NCBI GenBank assembly: GCA_030295235.1
Contig: AP026133.1
Span: 682,001-746,000, forward strand
Length of the DNA stretch: 64,000 nt
Direction: 5' to 3'
Source: Fistulifera solaris
Taxonomy: Eukaryota; Bacillariophyta; Bacillariophyceae; Naviculales; Stauroneidaceae
Shown here: positions 1,902 through 54,795 of the stretch, one piece after another
Position numbering within the stretch: position 1 is the stretch's first letter
How the letters are laid out: each line of letters begins with the position of its first letter
Translations under genes and position numbers: made by a program
The notes under the pieces: model-generated
Databases searched by the model: none
What the model saw: only the letters and a program-made list of their open reading frames with translations
Told to the model about the DNA's origin: nothing

Positions 1902-2672
1902 ATGTTTCCAAGTTCAAACAATAGCTCTCTGAATCCAATGGATTCACAGGAAGTTGATGAAGGGGCAGATGAACTGAAAAACCTGCAAAGAGCAAACAAA
2001 GATCGATGGGAGCATCTCCAAGACCTTCATCAGCAGTACTTGCAACTCTCGTCATCTCAGGCCCCTTCTGCCTCCATTGCGGCTTTCATACAGGCCGAAC
2101 GGGACGTTATATCCGTACATGGCACTGCGAATCACGAATGTGACGAACTAGTGGATGAACTAGAAGGCAAACGCTCGGGTACGGATCGTTTGGGGGCAGA
2201 ACTGGTCGAAAGGTGCAATCAACTTCACGAACTGAACCTTTTGTTTCAAGAAAAAATTCAATTTCAAACGGAATTTGTCGAAAAAATCGAGTATTTGATT
2301 CAAGAGCAGCAGATGATGCGACGCAAGTTAAAGCAGTTTGAAGCTGAATTGGACCGCGAAGCCGAGCAGACAGAAAATACAATGGTTGACCAACAAGAAA
2401 ATGAACGCCTCCGCGGTGATCTAGTGTACTTGGCAAGTCTCGTAACTCCAACCGTAAATACAAGTTATGGTCAAGAATCATGCCACATGAATCAATTATT
2501 AATCCAATTATTGGACAGATACATGGCTTCTCCAGTTGATCCTTATCTATCATGTCGTGAGTTGAATGTGGACATCAAGCATGTGGAGATATTGAAGAAT
2601 AGTTGGATGATTGATACATTTGACCACGATAATGACATGATTCGATTGACGGACTATTTGCAAGAGAATTGA
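1902..2672 (+). CDS. Coiled-coil protein, possible CENP-K-like kinetochore subunit
   Basis: An intact ORF of about 256 residues from the first ATG; an in-frame ATG also occurs at 1938. It is dominated by charged coiled-coil sequence (about residues 15-180) with heptad-like spacing. The C-terminal 60 residues contain LLIQLLDRYM, then VDPYL, then a helix ending in NDMIRLTDYL. From memory this resembles the CENP-K tail, which has a helix, DPY, a short non-polar stretch and a final IRLE segment, in a protein of similar size (about 270 residues). CENP-K is a subunit of the inner-kinetochore CCAN. The match rests on motif order only, so a generic coiled-coil protein remains possible. The gene converges on the zinc-finger gene with an 11-bp gap between stop codons. 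Confidence 0.5.
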   Translation: MFPSSNNSSLNPMDSQEVDEGADELKNLQRANKDRWEHLQDLHQQYLQLSSSQAPSASIAAFIQAERDVISVHGTANHECDELVDELEGKRSGTDRLGAELVERCNQLHELNLLFQEKIQFQTEFVEKIEYLIQEQQMMRRKLKQFEAELDREAEQTENTMVDQQENERLRGDLVYLASLVTPTVNTSYGQESCHMNQLLIQLLDRYMASPVDPYLSCRELNVDIKHVEILKNSWMIDTFDHDNDMIRLTDYLQEN

Positions 2673-2683
2673 TAGCTTCGAGC

Positions 2684-5611
2684 TTAGAATAATGCATTAC
2701 GTTCAAAGGAAGAGATCATTGCCTGATTCGTTGCTTCAATCCGAGACACTTCAAGAGTATTGGAGAGCCTTATTTGAGCGTCTTTCAACAGCTCTGTCAA
2801 TTCGTTCAACCTACGCAGCTGTGAAGCCACACATTCGTACTCACGTCCTTGTAGCGTCTGTGTTGTCAGGCGAAGCTCTTCCTCGGCCGCTTCTTTTTCA
2901 TTGGCCAGAAAAACGCGTCCCGTTTCCGCGTCGGAATCCATCAGCTTCTCCAATCGTCGCTTCTGGGCACGATTTCTCCGGCTTTGAACAATACCAATAC
3001 AGCGCGGACACAGAAGGTCATCACCGGGTTCAGGATCTTTCATGGTATACTTTTTCCGAGCACAGCTCCAATGATATGTGTTCGGACAAAATGAACACTT
3101 GTACAAAGGCTCCTGTGTATCTCCAGCTCTCTTCAAACAAGTGGAACATTTCGATGATCTCTTTAGGTCGTCGGGTTGGCGTGTTATGCTAGGGTATCGG
3201 CCAGAACTCAATTCTTCTACAAGTATGCGTAAGTCAATGAAAGGTGGCAAAGGTCTTTGGGGTAGGGACGACAATGTCAGTGTAGGTTGCCGCTCGGGCA
3301 CCTTATTGACCTTGCGCTTTTTCGGTACTTTCTTTTTCGTGATAAAAACCTTTGCTTTCGCAACACAAGGAACTGGTTTCTTCTTCTTCTTCTTCTTTGG
3401 CGCTAATTGTCGAGCTTTGAAGTTGAGCGCCTTGAACACGCTCGGATACATGGATCCAAGAAACTTTGACTGCTCGTTTTGAATTTGCCATTGGAGCTCC
3501 TGCATCGTTGTATCAGGGTGCACAAATTCTTTTTGTGAGGGTTTGCTCGTTTGAGCAATTGCTTTCTTTGAGTCTCTAGCTCGTCCTGTTGTTTGGTGTA
3601 GGCTTCCATCGTCATCGCTCCAGTCTCGCCGCGTGTTTCGATCACAAGGTTAGTTGATGGCTTGTAGGACCGAGGGGCTCCTGGTGGTCGAAACGCACTC
3701 ACTGTAACGGGCTGGTGAGATCGCGGAAGGAGTTTAAAGCCCAAACTGATCAATACTTGTGGATACAAGGGAAAATCCGTTACTTTGTGTTTCGGCACAA
3801 TCGCAACTCGAAGTGGTGGGGGTTTACTGTTACGACGAGCAAGTTCCCGTTGCGCGCGTTCTTCGATTGCAGCAAGCTGAGTTTCAATTGATGTCTTCTT
3901 CTTCTCGTTGTTGGTTACACAAACCTTAGCACGACAGTGATACTTGTATCCCACAATAGAAAGAAAGCCCAGCCCGCAGTCTTCGCATTGGTATTCTTCC
4001 AGTCCGTCAGAAAACGGAGTTGTGAGCTCATGACGTCGGATGTACAAACGCATTTCGGCTGCGTCTGTAAAAGTTGTCTGGTTTAAAGTGGAACCGTCAT
4101 CATTTATAACTACTTGCCGATTCTGAACAAGCTTGCAAACAACAATTCTCTGTGGGTATGAGTCAGCAGGGGCGGCGGGGTCTGCTTGAAATTTTCGGAA
4201 AGACGGTGCGACCGGTGGTAGAATCTTTGATTTTTCTTGATCATAGATGTTTGCAATGTTCGTGGCGTTATCCGATCTGCTCTCGTAAAGAGAACTAAAC
4301 TGGCGGCGTCTTGCTAGAGAATTCACTCCAGCTCTTGCTGTCCGCTCTTCAAAATATTGCCGGTATTGCACTTTGTATTTTGACCACTTTCTGTTAAGCT
4401 GAGCCAAGTCCGAAGGAATACTACCAGTTGGAGTAGCCCTGTCATCTGAAATAACTTCGACAACGCCAAAAGATGTCAAAAACCGACTCCCCGCGGGTGC
4501 TACGTCAAACGGCTTGTCGCTTTGAAACTTCTTAGTATGGCAAACCTTTTTCTCTGATACAAGAAGAGAATTGTAGGATGAGGAATTTTGTCAAAGAGCA
4601 CATGACGGTTTATTCGATTACGTGAACACTCACTTTCATGGTACTGATATCCAAGGACACTCGAGAATATAACTCCACAATCAGGGCATGTGCGATCTTT
4701 TTCAGCGCCACGGAATTTCTTGTACTTTATTTTCCTTTCCGAATTTTCATCTAGTTTTCGTCTGCCTTTTGAATAGGACCATCGGGTCGCTCCGTTGGCC
4801 GACAAACAAAATTTTGCTCGTGGTATTCCAGCGCTCTCGTCGATTTGAACGATTTGTTGCAGTGAGGACAATTGCTGACTTCCTCCTTCTTTTGTCGTTT
4901 GCGAGAACCTTTCGATGCGCCACGGGCTCGAAAGTCTTCATCCTGATCATCGTCGTACTCACTTTCCGTGTCGTCCTCTGTAGGGGCTACTTTCGCTTGT
5001 CGACTGGCGATTGCCGGGCTAGCTTCGTCATCAGCATCCTCCTCCGACTCGGTCGCCGGTGGCGACGCTATTGAAGGGTCCGATTCTCTAACACGCTTTT
5101 TGTTGGTGCCTTTCGATCTGCCCTTTGACGTTTGTCGTTTCGCGGCCGGCTTGACTGCATCCTCGTCGTCTTTGAGAGAATCATCATCGGGCTTTCCAGT
5201 AGATGCGGTGTCCTCGGGACTTTCCGGTCGTTCTTCTGGTCGACAAACGTATTTATTCACATGATAGTTGAGTCCGTAAAGACTTGTGAATACCGTACCG
5301 CAATGGGGGCATGTTTTTTGTTCCGTGGTCGCCTTCTTTCCTCGCTTCTGCTTGAGTTTTGGTATTTGCCGAGGCGAGCTCGGAATTTTCTCCGCTGCAC
5401 TCTCCTTTTTTTCCGCCTGATACTGAGGTCGACAAACCGAATGCTCCATATGATACGTCAATCCGTACTGACTAGTAAACTCACGTCCACAGTGAATGCA
5501 GGTGAGATCCGCAGATCTTTTGTTGGCTGCCGGCAAGGAGAGCTCTTCCTCCTCTGTTTCATCTGGGTCTTCGTCCTTGCTAGCACGACCGGGTTTCCTG
5601 GTTTCCGGCAT
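2684..5611 (-). CDS. Nuclear protein with five C2HC zinc fingers and a C-terminal PHD finger
   Basis: The start is the ATG at 5609-5611 (MPETRKPGR). Five fingers share the pattern C-x2-C-x12-H-x5-C with a G/A-L/Y-x-YH core. Examples are CIHCGREFTS...YHMEHSVC, CPHCGTVFTS...YHVNKYVC, CPHCNKSFKS...YHEQNFVC and CEDCGLGFLS...YHCRAKVC. Finger four is completed only by removing an intron at 4554-4633, which yields YHEKKKVC. Acidic and basic low-complexity linkers separate the fingers. Near the C-terminus a PHD-type Cys4-His-Cys3 module (CSTCLKRAGD...YKCSFCPNTYHWSC...LLCPRC) is followed by a basic coiled segment. Single-base frame breaks lie in the T-run at 4767-4770 and the T-run at 3530-3534. A chromatin-reader or transcription role is inferred from the PHD and zinc fingers; I do not recognise a named orthologue. 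Confidence 0.82.
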
Positions 5612-46543: not shown

Positions 46544-47367
46544 AATGCCCATCCACTACATGACCGTCGGTGACCCTTCTCGACGCATTGCCGTCGCACG
46601 AAGATCGATCCAGTGAAGTTGGCGTCTTATTTCTTCCAGGCTTTCATTCGAAAATGGCATCCAACAAGGGGAACGCGATCGCGAATTGGGCTCGCACGCG
46701 CAACTGTTCTTGTACTCTGTTCGATTATTCCGGCAGCGGCGCATCGGGGGGAGATATTCAAGAGGGCACGATCAGTCGCTGGTTGGAAGAAAGCATGTGT
46801 GTCTTTTCCGAGCAGACACAGGAAAGGCAAATACTAGTCGGCTCTAGTATGGGAGGATATCTGGCGCTTCTACTATGGAAGCAAGTGTTGAAGGAATACC
46901 CACAGGAGGCGACCCGAATCCATGCGTTGATCTTAATTGCTCCTGCTTGGGATATGACGGAAAAACTCCTTTGGAATAGGTTTTCGCAAGGCATTCAGAA
47001 TCAGATCTGGTCGAGCGGTGTGTACAATCGACCTTCGGCGTATGGAGACGGTCCCTATCCCATAACGCGACAGTTGATTGAAAACGGTCGAAAACACTTG
47101 TTGTTTGCCGACGGCTGGCAGTTTCCGGAACAGCGTCCCCCGATTTTCATTTTACATGGCATTCGAGATGAAGATGTTCCGCACACACATTCCATTCAGC
47201 TGACTGAATTGCTTCATGACGGCAACACGAGACTTCAACTGGTTGAAGATGGCGATCATCGGTTGTCACGACCGGAAGATTTGGAGCTATTGTGCGCGAT
47301 ACTCGACGCTGCATTGAGCAGCGATCATGTCGATACACGCACAAATGATGACAAAAACACTATCTGA
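46544..47367 (+). CDS. ABHD10-like alpha/beta hydrolase (probable acyl-protein thioesterase)
   Basis: The likely start MPIHYMTVGDPSRRIAVARRS gives the ABHD10-type lead-in. A one-base frame change near 46600-46615 links it to SSEVGVLFLPGFHSKMASNKG. Then follow FDYSGSGASGG, the nucleophile elbow VGSSMGGYLALLLW, ALILIAPAWDMTEKL, FILHGIRDEDVPHTHS with the acidic residue, and EDGDHRLSRPEDL with the catalytic histidine. ABHD10 in animals is a mitochondrial depalmitoylase and glucuronidase; related bacterial proteins are esterases. The full catalytic triad is present. The length is about 270 residues, normal for the family. Confidence 0.8.
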
Positions 47368-47886
47368 ATTCCGAAAAGAAACGTTCTGGAACCCAGCCGG
47401 TGTCTCCTGCTTCCTGGTTAATTATTCAGTGTGTGTGCAAAGCAATGAAAGACGGTCATCATGTGTTCACGCGGAGAAGAACGCTCCAATAAGCTAGTGA
47501 TTGAAGCAAACGCGCAACACTGGAAGTTTAATACTGCTCATTCATGGCTATTTGATTATGAACCCATTTGTTTCCGAAATGGCGTCGATAGAAAGTGGTC
47601 GTTCTTGAGAACGAAAGCAACTCAAGAAAATGAAGCGAAATATTCCAGGAGACTGCGGGAAATTTGATAACGGTGAAAATTCCCGAAAAACAGTTTGTTC
47701 TGGTTATGAAATAATACTAAGAAATAATCGATTTATTGTTGGTTTGGCTACTTTGCGCATCGTAAAAGCTGTAATTTCCTGCAGAAAGAAAAAATTTACT
47801 CCGTATTCAACAATATCCATTGAAAAATCCTACCGTACTCCGTAGAACGTGTGGCTCAAAGGGTACCGTCGCGAATTAAGGATACA
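47368..47886. other. Spacer before the transposase gene
   Basis: AT-rich sequence, perhaps including the left end of the DDE element. I could not find paired terminal inverted repeats by eye. CGTACTCCGTAG near 47833 resembles the ACTCCGTA words near 53765. Confidence 0.4.
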
Positions 47887-48841
47887 ATGAACATCAAGTT
47901 CAATTACTCTACGTTCCAGGCGCGTGAGTTTTTGAGAAGCGGATGCTTCATTATGGGCGAGTCGCTGGAAATGCGCAACTATCAGCCTACTCTCGTGCAA
48001 ACTCGACGATTCCAATCGCACTTTGGAGTATCCCCAATCCAGTGTTCTCAGCTGTGGATTCTACTGAAAGTACCAGAAAATGCTAGATTCAAGCATTTGC
48101 TCTGGGCATTGCTAAAACTGAAAGTGTACGCGACAGAAGAGGTTCTCAGCGGAATGGCTGGATGCGATGAAAAGACCTTTCGAAAATGGTCTGACCAGTT
48201 TATTGATGCCCTTTCTTTGCTCTCCTCCTGTCTGGTAAGATGTAGACGCTATTTGTCGTGCGTTTCCTGAACCATGAATCATGACTAACAACTACTCAAT
48301 TTTCGTCTGGGTAAGATAAACTGGAATAGTCGAAAGAAGAATGGAGTTCATACATTTTCGGTTGATGGAACCGACTGTCCGATCAATGAACCAAGTCCTT
48401 TTTCGCCTAAATGGTATTCTCATAAGTTCAAGAGTGCGGGTTGCGGTCTCGCTTTTCGCAAGTGAAATAATCTGGATCAACGGACCGTTTCCTTGTGGAG
48501 AATACCCCGATTCAAAAATTTTTTGGCGAGACCTTGTAGATAAACTTCCAACTGGTGAACGAGGCATAGCTGACCAAGGGTATCGATCAATTGCCCAACT
48601 TACCATAAAAAGTCGTGGTCACCAGAAAGGGAAATGTGTCTTGATCGGAAAAGTCTTAGATCGACACGAAAATGTGAATCAACGAATCAAGCGGTTTGGA
48701 TGCCTGCGACAGCGTTTTCGCCATGGTTGGAGATGCCATGGCAAGTATTTTAGAGCAGTCGCTTCTGTCGTTCAATTGCGATTGAAAACAGACAATCCGA
48801 TTTCTTCGCTACCAAAGAATAGTCGAAATCGAGAACACTAG
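47887..48841 (+). mobile_element. DDE-superfamily (IS5/PIF-Harbinger-like) transposase
   Basis: Part one reads FQSHFGVSPIQCSQLW and LLWALLKLKVYATEEVLSG, a helix-turn-helix-like region. An intron at 48235-48315 (GTAAGA...GTAAG) leads in frame to FSVDGTDCPINEPSPF, holding the first catalytic Asp. After a frame change near 48441 come IIWINGPFPCGEYPDSKIF and GIADQGYR, with the second Asp. LDRHENVNQRIKRFG follows with the Glu. The full DDE triad is visible. The frame change may be a missing T, but two codons also seem to be lost there, so the copy may be slightly decayed. It could be a domesticated or recently active element. Confidence 0.75.
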
Positions 48842-48846
48842 ACTGA

Positions 48847-50376
48847 TTACACTAAGCTTTCGATACGCGAACTGTAATTCCAAGAGATACATTTGATATA
48901 ATCTTCGTCTTTGTTTAAAACTTCTTGTTTGTCGCGTTTGCCCACATCAAGTGTGATGTATTTGTCTCTGATGTCTGTCTCGAGAATAATTGAAATCGCT
49001 TCGCCATCATTTGTTTTGGATTTCTTAAAAAGATGAATAGTCGAAATTTGATCGTGAAGGTTGTTGTTGTTTGTTTCAGTCGCAGTAACATCCAAATCTC
49101 TCTCTTTTACGCCATGATGAGCTTCAGAAATTTCTGTCAACGCCGCGATATTTTTTGACGAGTTCAGCGCTTCCATATATTCAAAATCACGTTTCCCAAG
49201 CGCTTGAATATCATAGCTCATAGCTTCAGGTAAAACTTCGAGTGCTTGCTCAGTTGTGAATTGCGAACGCATATTTGTGGTTAAAGATACTGCTCTGGCG
49301 AGAGATGTAGGAGGAGGGGGGTGACGCGCCAAAAATCTTGCGTTCAAACTAGGGGTCTCTTGTGTATTGCTAATTTTAATCGCATTCCAAGGTAAATCAG
49401 CATCGTGAAGTGCTGCCTCAACGCCGCCAGGTAAGTCGCGTAACGCTGAAAGGGGCAAGGATTCCTGTTTTTGTTCTGCAGATGCAGTAATGTGCTCCTT
49501 TGACTCCATTTTAGCAGAGACAGCGATTGCGAATTGATCTAGAGTAGTTTTTCGATCGCCGCTTCCACCGCCGATCGTATTTTTAGCTAACGAGTCATCC
49601 AAACCAAAAATTGTCTGTCTTTTGACCTGCTCTGGATCCGTCTTATTCGGCACAACAGGCTGATCGCCTTTCCTTGTCTCTTTCTTTTCCGCGTCAAATA
49701 CACTGCGTACATGCTCTGAAGTGACAAGCTGGTGGTCGGACGCTTCGTTGTTTTTCACCGTAGGCGGTGCTAGCTCTACAGTCGTGCTTACTTCTTGATC
49801 CATTGAAGCGCGAAAACTAGTGGCCATCCGATCCGACATAGTAAGTTTTTGGCGCCGGCCATGTGGACTATCCGTAAAATTGGTTGCGACCTCCTCCATT
49901 TCGATTGCCGCCACTACTTCGTTTTCATCGCCCTTTCTACTTTTCATTGTTACCACGCGGAACGGACGATTCTCGTCTTTGTCGTCCAACTTTTTAAGTT
50001 CGACTACCCCATCGTTAATCACCTCACGATGCGAAAAAAAGATTTTTCTATTTTTCGCCTTGAGTTCTTTCAGTTTTAGTCTGTGCGCAACAACAAGGGG
50101 GTGGTTCTCATTCATGTCACGGCAAAGGACAAAGAAATCGTCGTGGAACATCAAAGCTTCAGTAATGTCAATCGTGACCTCACTTCCATTCCTATTGATA
50201 CGACATTCAACGGAGTTGCTGCCGTATGCGGTTCGGGGTCGAAGCCCGGATAGAAGATTTGTGTACTGCGAAACGCGAAGATTTGCCTGCCGGTTGTACC
50301 AGCCATAAACAACGGACCCTGGAAGTTTTCCGTGAATTGTGACGGTCTCTTCACTCTCTTCGATATTCCTTTGCAT
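48847..50376 (-). CDS. Unrecognised protein, paralogue 1 of a three-gene cluster
   Basis: An intact 509-residue ORF starting MQRNIEESEETVTIHG. The N-terminal 150 residues share a domain with the two neighbouring genes: LPGSVVYGW near the start, EVTIDITEALMFHDDFF, then NHPLVVAHRLKLKELKAK and VELKK. The remaining 350 residues are charged and probably mostly disordered, with PLSALRDLPGGVEAAL and PLPEAMSYDIQALG-type helical patches. No named family is recognised. Its stop lies only six bases from the transposase stop on the other strand. It is divergent from paralogue 2. Its frame is intact, unlike paralogue 3. Confidence 0.72.
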   Translation of the reverse strand: MQRNIEESEETVTIHGKLPGSVVYGWYNRQANLRVSQYTNLLSGLRPRTAYGSNSVECRINRNGSEVTIDITEALMFHDDFFVLCRDMNENHPLVVAHRLKLKELKAKNRKIFFSHREVINDGVVELKKLDDKDENRPFRVVTMKSRKGDENEVVAAIEMEEVATNFTDSPHGRRQKLTMSDRMATSFRASMDQEVSTTVELAPPTVKNNEASDHQLVTSEHVRSVFDAEKKETRKGDQPVVPNKTDPEQVKRQTIFGLDDSLAKNTIGGGSGDRKTTLDQFAIAVSAKMESKEHITASAEQKQESLPLSALRDLPGGVEAALHDADLPWNAIKISNTQETPSLNARFLARHPPPPTSLARAVSLTTNMRSQFTTEQALEVLPEAMSYDIQALGKRDFEYMEALNSSKNIAALTEISEAHHGVKERDLDVTATETNNNNLHDQISTIHLFKKSKTNDGEAISIILETDIRDKYITLDVGKRDKQEVLNKDEDYIKCISWNYSSRIESLV

Positions 50377-50614
50377 GCTAATAGTGATTCTACAAAAGAG
50401 AGTTGATTCAATAGAAGACAGAAGCTGAAAGCACTGAATAAATAAAACTAAAAACTGAATTTGAGATCAGTCATTTTGTTGTGCGTGTAAATCATGCGTT
50501 GCGTGTTGTGTGCTGCGGGACGAGGAGATGTTCGTTGGTCGTCCTTCGTTGCTTGGTGCTTGATGCCTGTACAGTATCGGTCATCAGTCCCACGTTTACA
50601 GTTTTAATCCGGTT

Positions 50615-51397
50615 ATGCTAGCTATGTACTGTACCCTGTACCAGGTACCGGTACCGTACCGTACTGTAGGATTGTCGGTGTATACGTCACTAGTCGCTGT
50701 CGCTGGGGTGGCCAGTGGCGAGTGGCGAGTGGCCACAGAACACAAACCGATAATACTCCACTCTCCACTACAAGTAAATACTACGTACTACGGTAAGATC
50801 AAACGATTTTCATTTGGGCTTTGGGCACTACTTATTCAACGTCTTTACCTTTTACCTGGTAATGGTACTACGTACGGTGCTCTGTGCACGATTGAAGTCC
50901 CAATCAAACTTCCAGCTTCAGTCATTTACAAGTGGGACACATTGCAGACAAACTATTATTCCCAGCAATCAGTTTTGATCTCGGGTATCGATCCTGCAGA
51001 TGTCCATTTCAGTATTAGTCCATCTGGGAAGGAAACCGAGATTCGGATGAAGGGCGACTCTTCTATCATGATGATGCCAGAAGAATTCTGGCAAGCTGTT
51101 GCTCGGAACGAGTACCCAGCGTCGCATCCAAAAGTTGTAGCTCATATGAAGGCAATCAAGAAGCTCAAAAAGACTTCAATGGCGAATTCCGTTGTTTATG
51201 TACACAAGGTAGATTTGCCGGAAAAGGTCGGGCCTAACTTTGTTCCTCTCCCTCCTTACGAAAAAGGAGCTCGCATCTCCCTCATGGGAACGAAAAAGTG
51301 CCCAGAAATTGTTGCGGGTCTTGAAATGAAGATGGAGGATGATGGTTTTCAATCTCCTACGTTGATGGGTGCTTCCCGCGACGTTCGTTTGGGATAG
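50615..51397 (+). CDS. Unrecognised protein, paralogue 2 of a three-gene cluster
   Basis: The ORF is open from an ATG at 50615, but the first 90 codons have poor composition and contain the intergenic ACCAGGTA word. The real start or an exon boundary is therefore probably nearer 50885. From there the shared domain reads TIEVPIKLPASVIYKW, VHFSISPSGKETEIRM, MMMPEEFWQAV, SHPKVVAHMKAIKKLKK, VDLPEKVGPN and EIVAGLEMKME. The stop is at 51395-51397. The protein is essentially the domain alone with no long tail. The PKVVAHMKAIKKLK block matches paralogues 1 and 3 closely. Confidence 0.65.
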   Translation: MLAMYCTLYQVPVPYRTVGLSVYTSLVAVAGVASGEWRVATEHKPIILHSPLQVNTTYYGKIKRFSFGLWALLIQRLYLLPGNGTTYGALCTIEVPIKLPASVIYKWDTLQTNYYSQQSVLISGIDPADVHFSISPSGKETEIRMKGDSSIMMMPEEFWQAVARNEYPASHPKVVAHMKAIKKLKKTSMANSVVYVHKVDLPEKVGPNFVPLPPYEKGARISLMGTKKCPEIVAGLEMKMEDDGFQSPTLMGASRDVRLG

Positions 51398-51512
51398 TTC
51401 ATTGCTTGGCAGGACAGCCATTGCGTGTATCTATAATCTCGAACAAAAGAACTGTAGACACGTTTACAAAACAACAAAACTATAAAAGTAGATTACACTA
51501 ATCCTATGGTAT

Positions 51513-52919
51513 CTAGATATTGGTATGTTTTGCCTCACTCTGGTCTCCGTACTTTTTATCATCTTTGGGAGCGCCAGCAGGTTTGGCACTGGCCGGGGAG
51601 GATCCTTCAGATTGCTGTTCGTTGTAGTCTTATCAACATCCATAGGTGTCGCACCTTTGCTATTCAAGCCTAAGAAATCTCGGATGTTGTTCTGATGTTC
51701 GTTTTCAAAGACAAAAGTCGTGGTCGTCGGCGTCGTCGTCTCTCGTCCCTTTCGCTTCTTGTTTTCGCGATCCACACTCATATCGTTGCTTTCCTCCGCG
51801 TTAGAGTCGTTTGCTTCTGTTTGCTCATCTTCATCGTCAAAGCAACTCTCCCATGCGTCAGGAACAGTCTGGCTGCGGAATTCGATAGGACGAGCTTCCT
51901 TCATCTCCATGACAACAAACTGCTCCTGCGATCCTTGCACCCCAAACTTGAGTAGAACAAGCTGGTGTTCCTTTGGAGTATCCGGATTCCACTGCATCTC
52001 AACATCAAATGGCAATTCAATTCGACACTTCTTGACAATTCGTTTGCGTGGGTCGCTATCCTTGATATCTTTTATAGCTGAGTTGTGCGCAACAACTTTC
52101 GTGTGGTTCGGACCATGAGCAGCGTCTTTCCAAAACTTCTCGTCAAATTTCTTGGGATCATAGATCGAGTCATCCGTAACGTCAATGGCAACAGTCGCAG
52201 TCCGGGGATTCTCGATGTATGCACTGACGTAGCTCTTCAAACCGCATCCGGGGGCTGGGGTGCGCAACGCGCCTGCAGGTAAGCGAACAATTACCGTCAC
52301 ATCCGCGCCTGGTTTGATCCTACCCATTCGAGCACGAGCAATGGGAGTTCAAAATCAACGTTGGCATTCGGATTCTTTTTCTTGCCCGAATTCTTGTCGC
52401 TCTTGTCGCCTTTGTTTTGTGCTGCTTTCTTCTTCTGGCAGTCTTCAGCGTCTATATCGATCCCTAATGAAACGGTCAGATAGGTTTGTTGAAGGCAGCA
52501 AAGAGGAATAAATGAAAGCTTACCACCAAAGTTCTCGTCAAGGTCATCCAAGCCCGTTCCACCAACATCGTCGTCATCATTGGCATCTGATGATTCGTAT
52601 CCCGCAGCTGCGGCCATTGCAAGAATTGCCGGATCGACTAGAGCCGGTTTGAGACATTTCTTCCACACCTTGGCCTTCTCTTTCCACTGCTTTCGGGCGC
52701 CATCCAAATTGGCGGTGAAGTTTCGCTTTTGTATTGGAAGAAAGGACTCATGGCCCGTACCGCTGCCGGCCCTTCGCCGCCATCTTTCTTTCCCTCTACC
52801 TTGATAAGCTTCGTCTTCAGCATGTAAATTAGAGTATGCCATCCCTCGCAATCTCCGCACTCTTTCCATGCTTTTAGATTGGGGTCAAAGTCGTCATCAT
52901 CGTCATCTTTCTTTGGCAT
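51513..52919 (-). CDS. Unrecognised protein, paralogue 3 of a three-gene cluster
   Basis: Starts MPKKDDDDDDFDPNLKAW with a CGDCEGWH motif, then a Lys-rich helical stretch KQWKEKAKVWKKC. An intron at about 52462-52524 (GTAAGC...ATTAG) joins DENFGG to IDIDAEDCQ. The shared domain follows: ADVTVIVRLPAG, TATVAIDVTDDSIYD, NHTKVVAHNSAIKDIKD, CRIELPFDVEM. The tail is acidic and then KRKGRE-basic. Frame changes fit short runs at 52741-52743, 52323-52325 and 51595-51598. After the last, the frame ends AKHTNI with a TAG at 51513-51515; without it the ORF would end at 51464. No family is recognised. Confidence 0.68.
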
Positions 52920-54795
52920 TGTTCAAAGCTCGAGTGCTGCGTTCTGAGTGCGTGAAATCGTTGCTGCCGGCGATTTGTGAGAATTACCGATTGTTACCAA
53001 AACCAAGATCCGCGAGACGCGGAAATGTGCTTACGTACAAGCGTGAAGCGTGAAGCATGGGGAAATCACAGATCACAGCATCATCAGACATCAGATTCTG
53101 TCACGAATGTCCGATGTCCCCGTTTTAAGTACGTTCAAATTATTTAGCATCATTTAGCATCTTCCTGTTTCCAGCGTCTCATGTCTCATGTCTCATTTCA
53201 TTGCTTGAACACAGAGAACTGTGACGTTCGACAGTCGACAAACAAATCACCAAATCACCTGGTCCTGGTATCGACTATCGACGCTCGATGCAGCTCGACG
53301 GCTTTGGTGATTATTTATTATTTTATCCGCTTGAGGCCCAAGGAATGCCTACTTTAAGTAGATGTTTGAAGACACAAGACACCCTAGTTTAGAAAATCAT
53401 AATATAATAATGTACTTTACAAAAATGAAGCAAAAAACTCTAGGACCTAAAGAATCCCGGATTACGTACTACTTTCTGCATCTAAAATCTAGAGTCTCGA
53501 GTCACGAGTTTTCAGTATCCCGTGGTGAATTCCGAATACCAGAATGACGATGGAGAATGGAGATTGGAGATCGAGAACGAGGACAACAGCAAAACAGTGA
53601 AACGTTCCAGTTAGTGTTTACTTTACACAAAATCACAGAGACACAAAAAATGACATCATCAATCATCATTCCTCATCTACCATCTTTTTTTTTGAAACAC
53701 GATACACGATCAACGATCAGAACTCGGAACTCGCAACTCGCAACAAAACAAATACAGAGTAAAATACTCCGTACTCCGTACCAGGTACGGGGTACGGAGT
53801 AGGGAGTACAAAAAACTCCGTAGGCAAATGGCAATAAAAAAATCAACTAGTCTATCAGCGTTCATAAATTTAGTCCAAAAACGAGAAACGAGTTCCAAGT
53901 TCCAAGTTCAAAGGGTCCAAGGTCCAAGGGTCATTGGTCATAGTTCTGGTCAGCGAAGACCGAAGACTACCAGGTACCTACAATCTACAAGTATAGCTCC
54001 AACTCTCTCTACAGAGGTCTGCTCTGGCCTCTGAAAAGTAAGAGCACATGACAAACAGTCTGCTAGTCTACACGTCCATTGCTCATTATTTCGCCCTCAG
54101 CCTCACCCATAACAGGTACCGTAGCAGAACTGATAGCCAAATTCGGCTTACCATAACTTCTTGTACGGATTTTCGAACGGTAAGCTGTCAGTTATCAAAT
54201 CGTTTCGTACCGTTACAATGGGGAGGAGCGCACGCGTGAAACACTTCGGCTAGCGTCAATGCAGTCTTCCCGAGTTATAATTGAGGTTATTCTTAATCCT
54301 AATCATCATCAATCATCGTCACGATCGTCCATCCTCAAATATTTCACGAGGAACACATTCATAGCTCGTCCGCTACCAATCCACTCAAGAAATAAAGTGG
54401 CGAATAACCATCGTTATGTTATGATAGGTAAACTTTCATAGATTTCCTAATTATGATATTTCCCGCAGTCTCCAGGAACAATCAACGCCGTGTGAATGCG
54501 AAGGTATTTTATTTTGATTACTTGAGAGGAGCCCCGAAATATGTCACTCCCGCGTGACAGTGTATGTGTGTCGAGGCGCAATAGTCGCACCTTTGCTGTG
54601 GAATATTCGACTCTTGTCTTTGCGTCTCCACTCAAGGTATTTTCCGTTCCACGACCCCCATAGACCTCATCAACGAATAAAAATTGCGTGGGACATTGAT
54701 GTAATGGCAGTGAGTTGAGTTTCCAATTCTATCACAAATTTGGGTCAGTGCATTTCTCACTCTTCCACTAACAAATCCTTTTTACGCACGCGAAC
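52920..54795. other. 1.9-kb spacer of short direct and inverted repeats
   Basis: Rich in tandem short words: CATGTCTCATGTCTCAT (53180), AGTTCCAAGTTCCAAGTTC (53890) and AAGGGTCCAAGGTCCAAGGG (53915). An 18-bp imperfect inverted repeat is listed separately. ACCAGGTA occurs at 53780 and 53969. No ORF above 85 codons has a credible start or domain. Confidence 0.5.
53765..53808. repeat. 18-bp inverted repeat around an ACCAGGTA motif
   Basis: TACTCCGTACTCCGTACC at 53765-53782 pairs with GGTACGGAGTAGGGAGTA at 53791-53808, 17 of 18 positions, with an 8-nt loop. The arms themselves contain ACTCCGT in tandem. It could form a strong hairpin. Confidence 0.8.

Follow-up and report, generated by a model that had tools for sequence, protein, structure and literature searches.

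Among transposons of the PIF/Harbinger-ISL2EU-Spy (PHIS) superfamily, Spy is described, in the excerpts of PMC4482050, as having a single transposase open reading frame (ORF) and inserting within AAATTT. Proteins derived from Harbinger transposons also occur in the IDM/MBD7 complex of Arabidopsis, where two alpha-crystallin-domain proteins, IDM2 and IDM3, associate with MBD7 and with HDP1 and HDP2, both of Harbinger origin, and silencing is suppressed (excerpts of PMC6801703 and PMC5462541). VANDAL transposons encode accessory proteins of their own, the VANC anti-silencing proteins, and are comparable to the present case in that respect. Here we describe a DNA transposon with terminal inverted repeats (TIRs) in the diatom Fistulifera solaris, found in a 64-kb stretch of contig C8 (the window), which carries a DDE_Tnp_4 transposase gene and three paralogous genes, A, B and C, with a predicted HSP20-like domain. 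That the three products are accessory proteins serving transposition or anti-silencing is the reading that we consider fairly probable.

Genes A, B and C and the transposase are the content of one TIR DNA transposon. In the window it spans 47648..54473 (6826 bp, no strand assigned), both tips having been placed by pattern search; the left tip, GGAGACTGCGGGAAATTTGATAA, lies at 47648..47670 (+; C8:729648-729670) and the right tip, GGAGACTGCGGGAAATATCATAA, at 54451..54473 (-; C8:736451-736473). Searching the genome (51.7 Mb, 61 contigs) with the tip pattern gave 10 perfect matches, all reading GGAGACTGCGGGAAAT, which are both ends of five elements, and 2 more with three mismatches; the pattern read backwards, used as a control, gave 0 matches. 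The five elements (the window copy, C8:935232, and one each on C6, C10 and C35) were compared over 18-20 kb surrounding each location and share the gene order transposase-A-B-C. Four of them are close copies of 7.07-7.15 kb, with 98.0-99.3% identity in all six pairs; the window copy is colinear with these and matches them at 67-74% identity in the longer alignable blocks, which are mostly coding. In the four close copies the TIRs give 172-182-bp alignments of ~75% identity; in the window copy they are clear only over the first ~25 bp.

Alignment with the four other copies was used to delimit the transposase gene. Exon 1 (47887..48234, +) has 116 codons, the intron (48235-48315, +) starts with GTAAG, and exon 2 (48316..48841, +) contains the DDE core. 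The frame is open in 3/5 copies. That of the window copy is interrupted by a gap of 14 bp in exon 2, relative to the other copies, and that of C35 by two single-base indels. The spliced transposase of the C6 copy matched DDE_Tnp_4 (PF13359) with 34.1 bits against a cut-off of 24.8, and the exon-2 frame of the window alone stayed under the cut-off at 18.2 bits. DDE_Tnp_4 transposases are of the PIF/Harbinger and IS5 kind. A sequence search of PDB with the transposase returned a single match, to a fatty acid kinase protein (E 0.24), which was taken as chance. The initial annotation had seen a DDE transposase beside the trio; it does stand next to these genes, but as part of the same element and not as a neighbour.

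By features alone, the element is like PHIS in its DDE_Tnp_4-type transposase, with an intact triad of D133, D207 and E239 in the spliced C6 copy (motif positions), in TIRs starting with GG, present at 10/10 tips, and in having further ORFs. It appears unlike PHIS in that it carries three paralogous genes for predicted HSP20-like proteins where PHIS has one Myb/SANT or YqaJ protein, and differs in that no TWA, AT, ANT, CWG or TNA target duplication was seen. No adjacent target duplication as long as 2 bp, including the TWA of PIF/Harbinger, was found at any of the five junction pairs; for ISL2EU, there was neither an AT duplication at the junctions nor a YqaJ match among the proteins scanned. 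In lacking a duplication of at least 2 bp the element may resemble Spy, but one extra base fits best here in 4/4 cases; it differs from Spy in its three additional genes and in junctions that contain no AAATTT.

The flanks of all five insertions were also joined and searched for in the genome, which gave empty homoeologous sites for four of the five: on C7 for the window copy (C7:840869-841060) and for C8:935232, on C34 for the C35 copy, and on C9, in two pieces, for the C10 copy. The C6 copy gave no empty site in this search. When 0-9 bases were dropped at the junction and the fit to the empty site was scored, one extra base fitted best in 4/4 sites, although it led by only one point over two bases in the window copy and by only one point over no base in C8:935232, so that no duplication of 2 bp or more fits all insertions. 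In 2/4 sites the extra base is identical to the flank on the other side; a 1-bp target duplication and a single base added at the junction are both possible. A 7-bp match across both junctions of the window copy, TCCAGGA, was rejected as a target duplication, since it includes tip bases and is missing from the empty site. Because the homoeologous contigs C7, C9 and C34 are empty where C8, C10 and C35 are occupied, four of the five insertions are probably younger than the divergence of the two subgenomes. The homoeologous stretches matched at 83-92% identity, and matches to HSP20 and CS profiles were often paired on contigs of neighbouring number (C34/C35, C17/C18, C19/C20, C1/C2 and C36/C37), a pattern that fits an allodiploid diatom genome; F. 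solaris has been reported as allopolyploid (PMC5935921).

The three frames A, B and C lie in the window in -,+,- order, as first described. Gene A (48847..50376, -) encodes 509 aa, with the shared domain at its N-terminus (49822-50376) followed by a long, poorly conserved tail, and its domain frame is open in 5/5 copies. Gene B (50888..51397, +) is the bare domain; its frame is open from 50615, leaving the start uncertain, and is open in 4/5 copies. Gene C has a window frame at 51464-52327 (-) of 287 aa, plus upstream exon sequence to 52919, and its structure is deduced as follows. Exon 2 (51464..52463, -) would encode the domain and a charged tail; in the window copy its frame changes near 52300-52330, and it has a relative, P0002, in a public assembly. 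Only in the C35 copy is the domain exon a single unbroken frame, with a local sequence change there. For the putative intron (52464..52523, -; GT...AG, 60 nt), a border resembling that of the window occurs in the C35 copy and also where a second relative, P0004, ends. Exon 1 (52524..52919, -) would encode a GWHTL...MSPLFKY...NFxANLD region and an Asp/Glu-rich tail; it too has a frame change in the window copy, and P0004 is 62% identical to the exon of the C35 copy. The structure predicted for exon 1 is helical and of low confidence (pLDDT 53), and no Myb/SANT match was found for it in Pfam at E<=1.

That A, B and C share a domain was borne out by Smith-Waterman scores of 115 for A-B (shuffles 28±4.4, 0/1000 reaching it), 91 for B-C (30±5.1, 0/1000) and 54 for A-C (29±4.7, 1/1000). 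None of the three rose above the cut-off in Pfam or NCBIfam profile searches, in agreement with the statement that they belong to no named family, and the shared domain had no PDB match by sequence. The motifs originally listed fared unevenly. The block HxxVVAHxxx[IL]Kx[IL]K is present in all three window proteins but is looser in the C-type relatives of our 8-row alignment, in which only V39, F67, H80, V83, V84, H86, K94, E146, M147 and F154 (B numbering) are invariant. The later xLPxxV strand is absent from A, which has VINDGV there. TVxVxLPA/G does not mark one homologous position: it is the first strand in A and B, whereas TVIVRLPAG of C falls, in a weak profile comparison (probability 7%), on the A/B strand that ends in LLSG, and the first strand of C is likely to be LPxLVIxW, just upstream of TVIVRLPAG and in another frame in the window copy. 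Nor is the CxxC of gene C kept in the two relatives available, which have GEGTKGWHTL and GESCKGWHTL, so that a metal site is unlikely.

Where undamaged, the same gene is 57-63% identical between the window copy and a close copy; for B and C of the C10 copy, which are damaged, the figure is 36-49%. Among themselves, A, B and C reach only about 22-31% identity. Since same-gene identity between the lineages is far above A-B-C identity, these comparisons place the triplication in the element's ancestry, before the split of its two lineages. Selection was assessed by comparing the window copy with a close copy, using dN/dS and counts of differences per codon position; dS was near saturation. For transposase exon 1, window against C6, differences fell 20/6/54 by codon position, with dN 0.087 and dS saturated; for A, window against C35, dN/dS was 0.30/1.60 in the domain, and the tail, with pN 0.51, is loosely kept. 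These comparisons show purifying selection on the shared domain in each of A, B and C and, at its strongest, on transposase exon 1.

Relatives in public assemblies show that the family occurs beyond this genome. P0001 (source 'ena') is of B type and 55% identical to B, P0002 matches C exon 2, and P0004 matches C exon 1; the last two are from source 'lgn', each with a 2707-base contig, presumably the same contig. The protein database search that gave P0001 and P0002 had as its third match the window's own protein, and full-length A had no match in the database. Viral contigs contained 42 and 40 pattern stretches, none of which was confirmed as a family member.

A structure of B was modelled from eight sequences (pLDDT 64, pTM 0.53). 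The model has strands at 11-17, 22-29, 39-43 and 49-55, then helices at 65-72 and 81-97, the second including VVAH, and then strands at 102-109, 114-116, 128-134 and 139-149. With this model Foldseek placed HSP20 or CS proteins in its confident rows (probability >0.9), 2 of the 50 rows shown for PDB and 4 of the 50 shown for BFVD, and VIA-align, which re-aligns Foldseek candidates, listed small heat-shock or CS-domain chains in 50/50 rows. A profile of B scored against seven host HSP20 sequences beat 198/200 shuffles. Several results weigh against this assignment: the pLDDT is only 64; no Foldseek E-value reached 0.001 in PDB or BFVD, the top PDB row by E being a serpin with a probability of 0.08; profiles of A, of C and of the pooled family did not stand out over shuffles against the same seven host sequences; and none of 8 members matched HSP20 (PF00011) or CS (PF04969) at an E limit of 10, though HMMER filters drop most matches above ~0.1 despite that limit. 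On the model, the domain of B probably has an HSP20/alpha-crystallin/CS-like beta-sandwich fold, as distinct from being a member of the HSP20 family, and the assignment would extend to A and C through their sequence homology to B. The predicted fold is the likeness to HSP20/alpha-crystallin and CS (p23-like) proteins; unlike these, the present proteins have no sequence-profile match, are transposon-encoded and carry a two-helix insert with the HxxVVAHxxxIKxLK motif, which in the model takes the position of the beta-6 loop of small heat-shock proteins. A new fold is thus probably not involved.

An HSP20-like domain is an unexpected cargo for a transposon, and among the literature matches listed we found no HSP20-like protein among a transposon's own genes. 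We suggest that A, B and C have a role in transposition or anti-silencing. They may bind one another through the HSP20-like domain, B being a bare adaptor, A adding a long flexible tail and C an N-terminal region of its own, possibly for binding DNA or chromatin; together they would help the transposase as assembly or solubility factors, or would protect the element against silencing. One or other of these roles, anti-silencing or assembly, seems the most attractive reading because the Arabidopsis IDM/MBD7 complex also pairs alpha-crystallin-domain with Harbinger-derived proteins. This parallel is concrete but one in kind only: the plant proteins are products of host genes, whereas here a single mobile element of an alga would encode them all. 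That a Harbinger-like transposon carries its own alpha-crystallin-domain trio as an anti-silencing or transposase-assembly complex, a mobile counterpart of the IDM complex, is offered tentatively, as a reading we doubt more than we believe. If this were so, the pairing of alpha-crystallin-domain and Harbinger proteins would be ancient or repeatedly selected. With its three diverged copies of the domain, the element supplies a defined set of proteins for asking if adaptors resembling chaperones assist transposition or the evasion of silencing; A, B and C would otherwise likely be annotated as orphan host genes.

An unlikely alternative, though to be taken seriously, is that the three proteins serve the transpososome as structural or DNA-binding subunits and have an unrelated, beta-rich fold, their likeness to HSP20 being an accident of modelling. 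The modest pLDDT, the Foldseek E-values and the lack of Pfam HSP20/CS matches would fit this reading, as would the second ORF for a DNA-binding protein that PHIS transposons usually have (excerpts of PMC4482050); it is opposed by two structure libraries, both of which, searched with the single B model, rank HSP20/CS proteins in their confident rows.

Nor do we favour a host origin of the trio. The host genome has at least 10 HSP20 and at least 16 CS-domain matches, so a source existed from which stress chaperones could have been captured as passengers that do nothing for the element. But genome searches, in which only first-pass candidates were scored, found no related host gene: with P0002 at E<=10, 11/11 matches, and with A, B and C at E<=0.001, 24/24 matches lay inside the five elements. 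The three-gene order is, moreover, kept in both element lineages under purifying selection, and we hold passenger status to be improbable. The initial annotation had instead suggested a gene cluster duplicated locally beside a transposase, and the three genes are indeed adjacent and related. However, inverted tips enclose the trio, the whole unit is found at five locations and empty sites exist on homoeologous contigs, and its duplication is older than the element lineages; we give this explanation almost no credence.

Beyond the five elements, the three-mismatch tips (GGAGGATGCGGGAAAT...) lie at C3:1090504-1090526 and C17:392-414 and are perhaps from a related element family or a remnant; in 6.6 kb on the element side of the C3 site, no partner tip was found by pattern and no A, B, C or transposase match at E<=0.1. 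Short tandem repeats were observed between A and B at C6:1902197-1902495 and at the equivalent place in the other three close copies, and were not seen as off-diagonal matches in the window copy at the same comparison settings.

Other DDE_Tnp_4 copies lacked the trio: no A, B or C was found in the ~3.3-kb loci of the six other places (L055-L060), and 3.7 kb beside a C7 copy (L083) gave only one B match at chance level (E 0.52). One of these loci, L057 (C15 near 195228), has a DDE_Tnp_4 transposase of 353 aa (46.3 bits; 1477-2538, -) adjoining an ORF (2630-3379, +) of tandem WRxSxARxxL...FxxxLADHR repeats with no Pfam match above cut-off, and this pair may represent a second family of transposons that has an accessory protein of its own. 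A by-eye similarity of C exon 1 to the WRxS-repeat domain was rejected, as 283/1000 shuffles (C35 exon) and 972/1000 (P0004) reached the score against the whole repeat ORF.

On the left of the window copy, an alpha/beta-hydrolase gene at 46570-47367 (+; Hydrolase_4, 44.5 bits), presumably a host gene, ends ~280 bp before the left tip. A host HSP20 gene at C8:943162-943749 (-; L033:3162-3749) is ~0.9 kb away from where the element at C8:935232-942296 ends; it stands beside one of the five insertions, possibly by coincidence.

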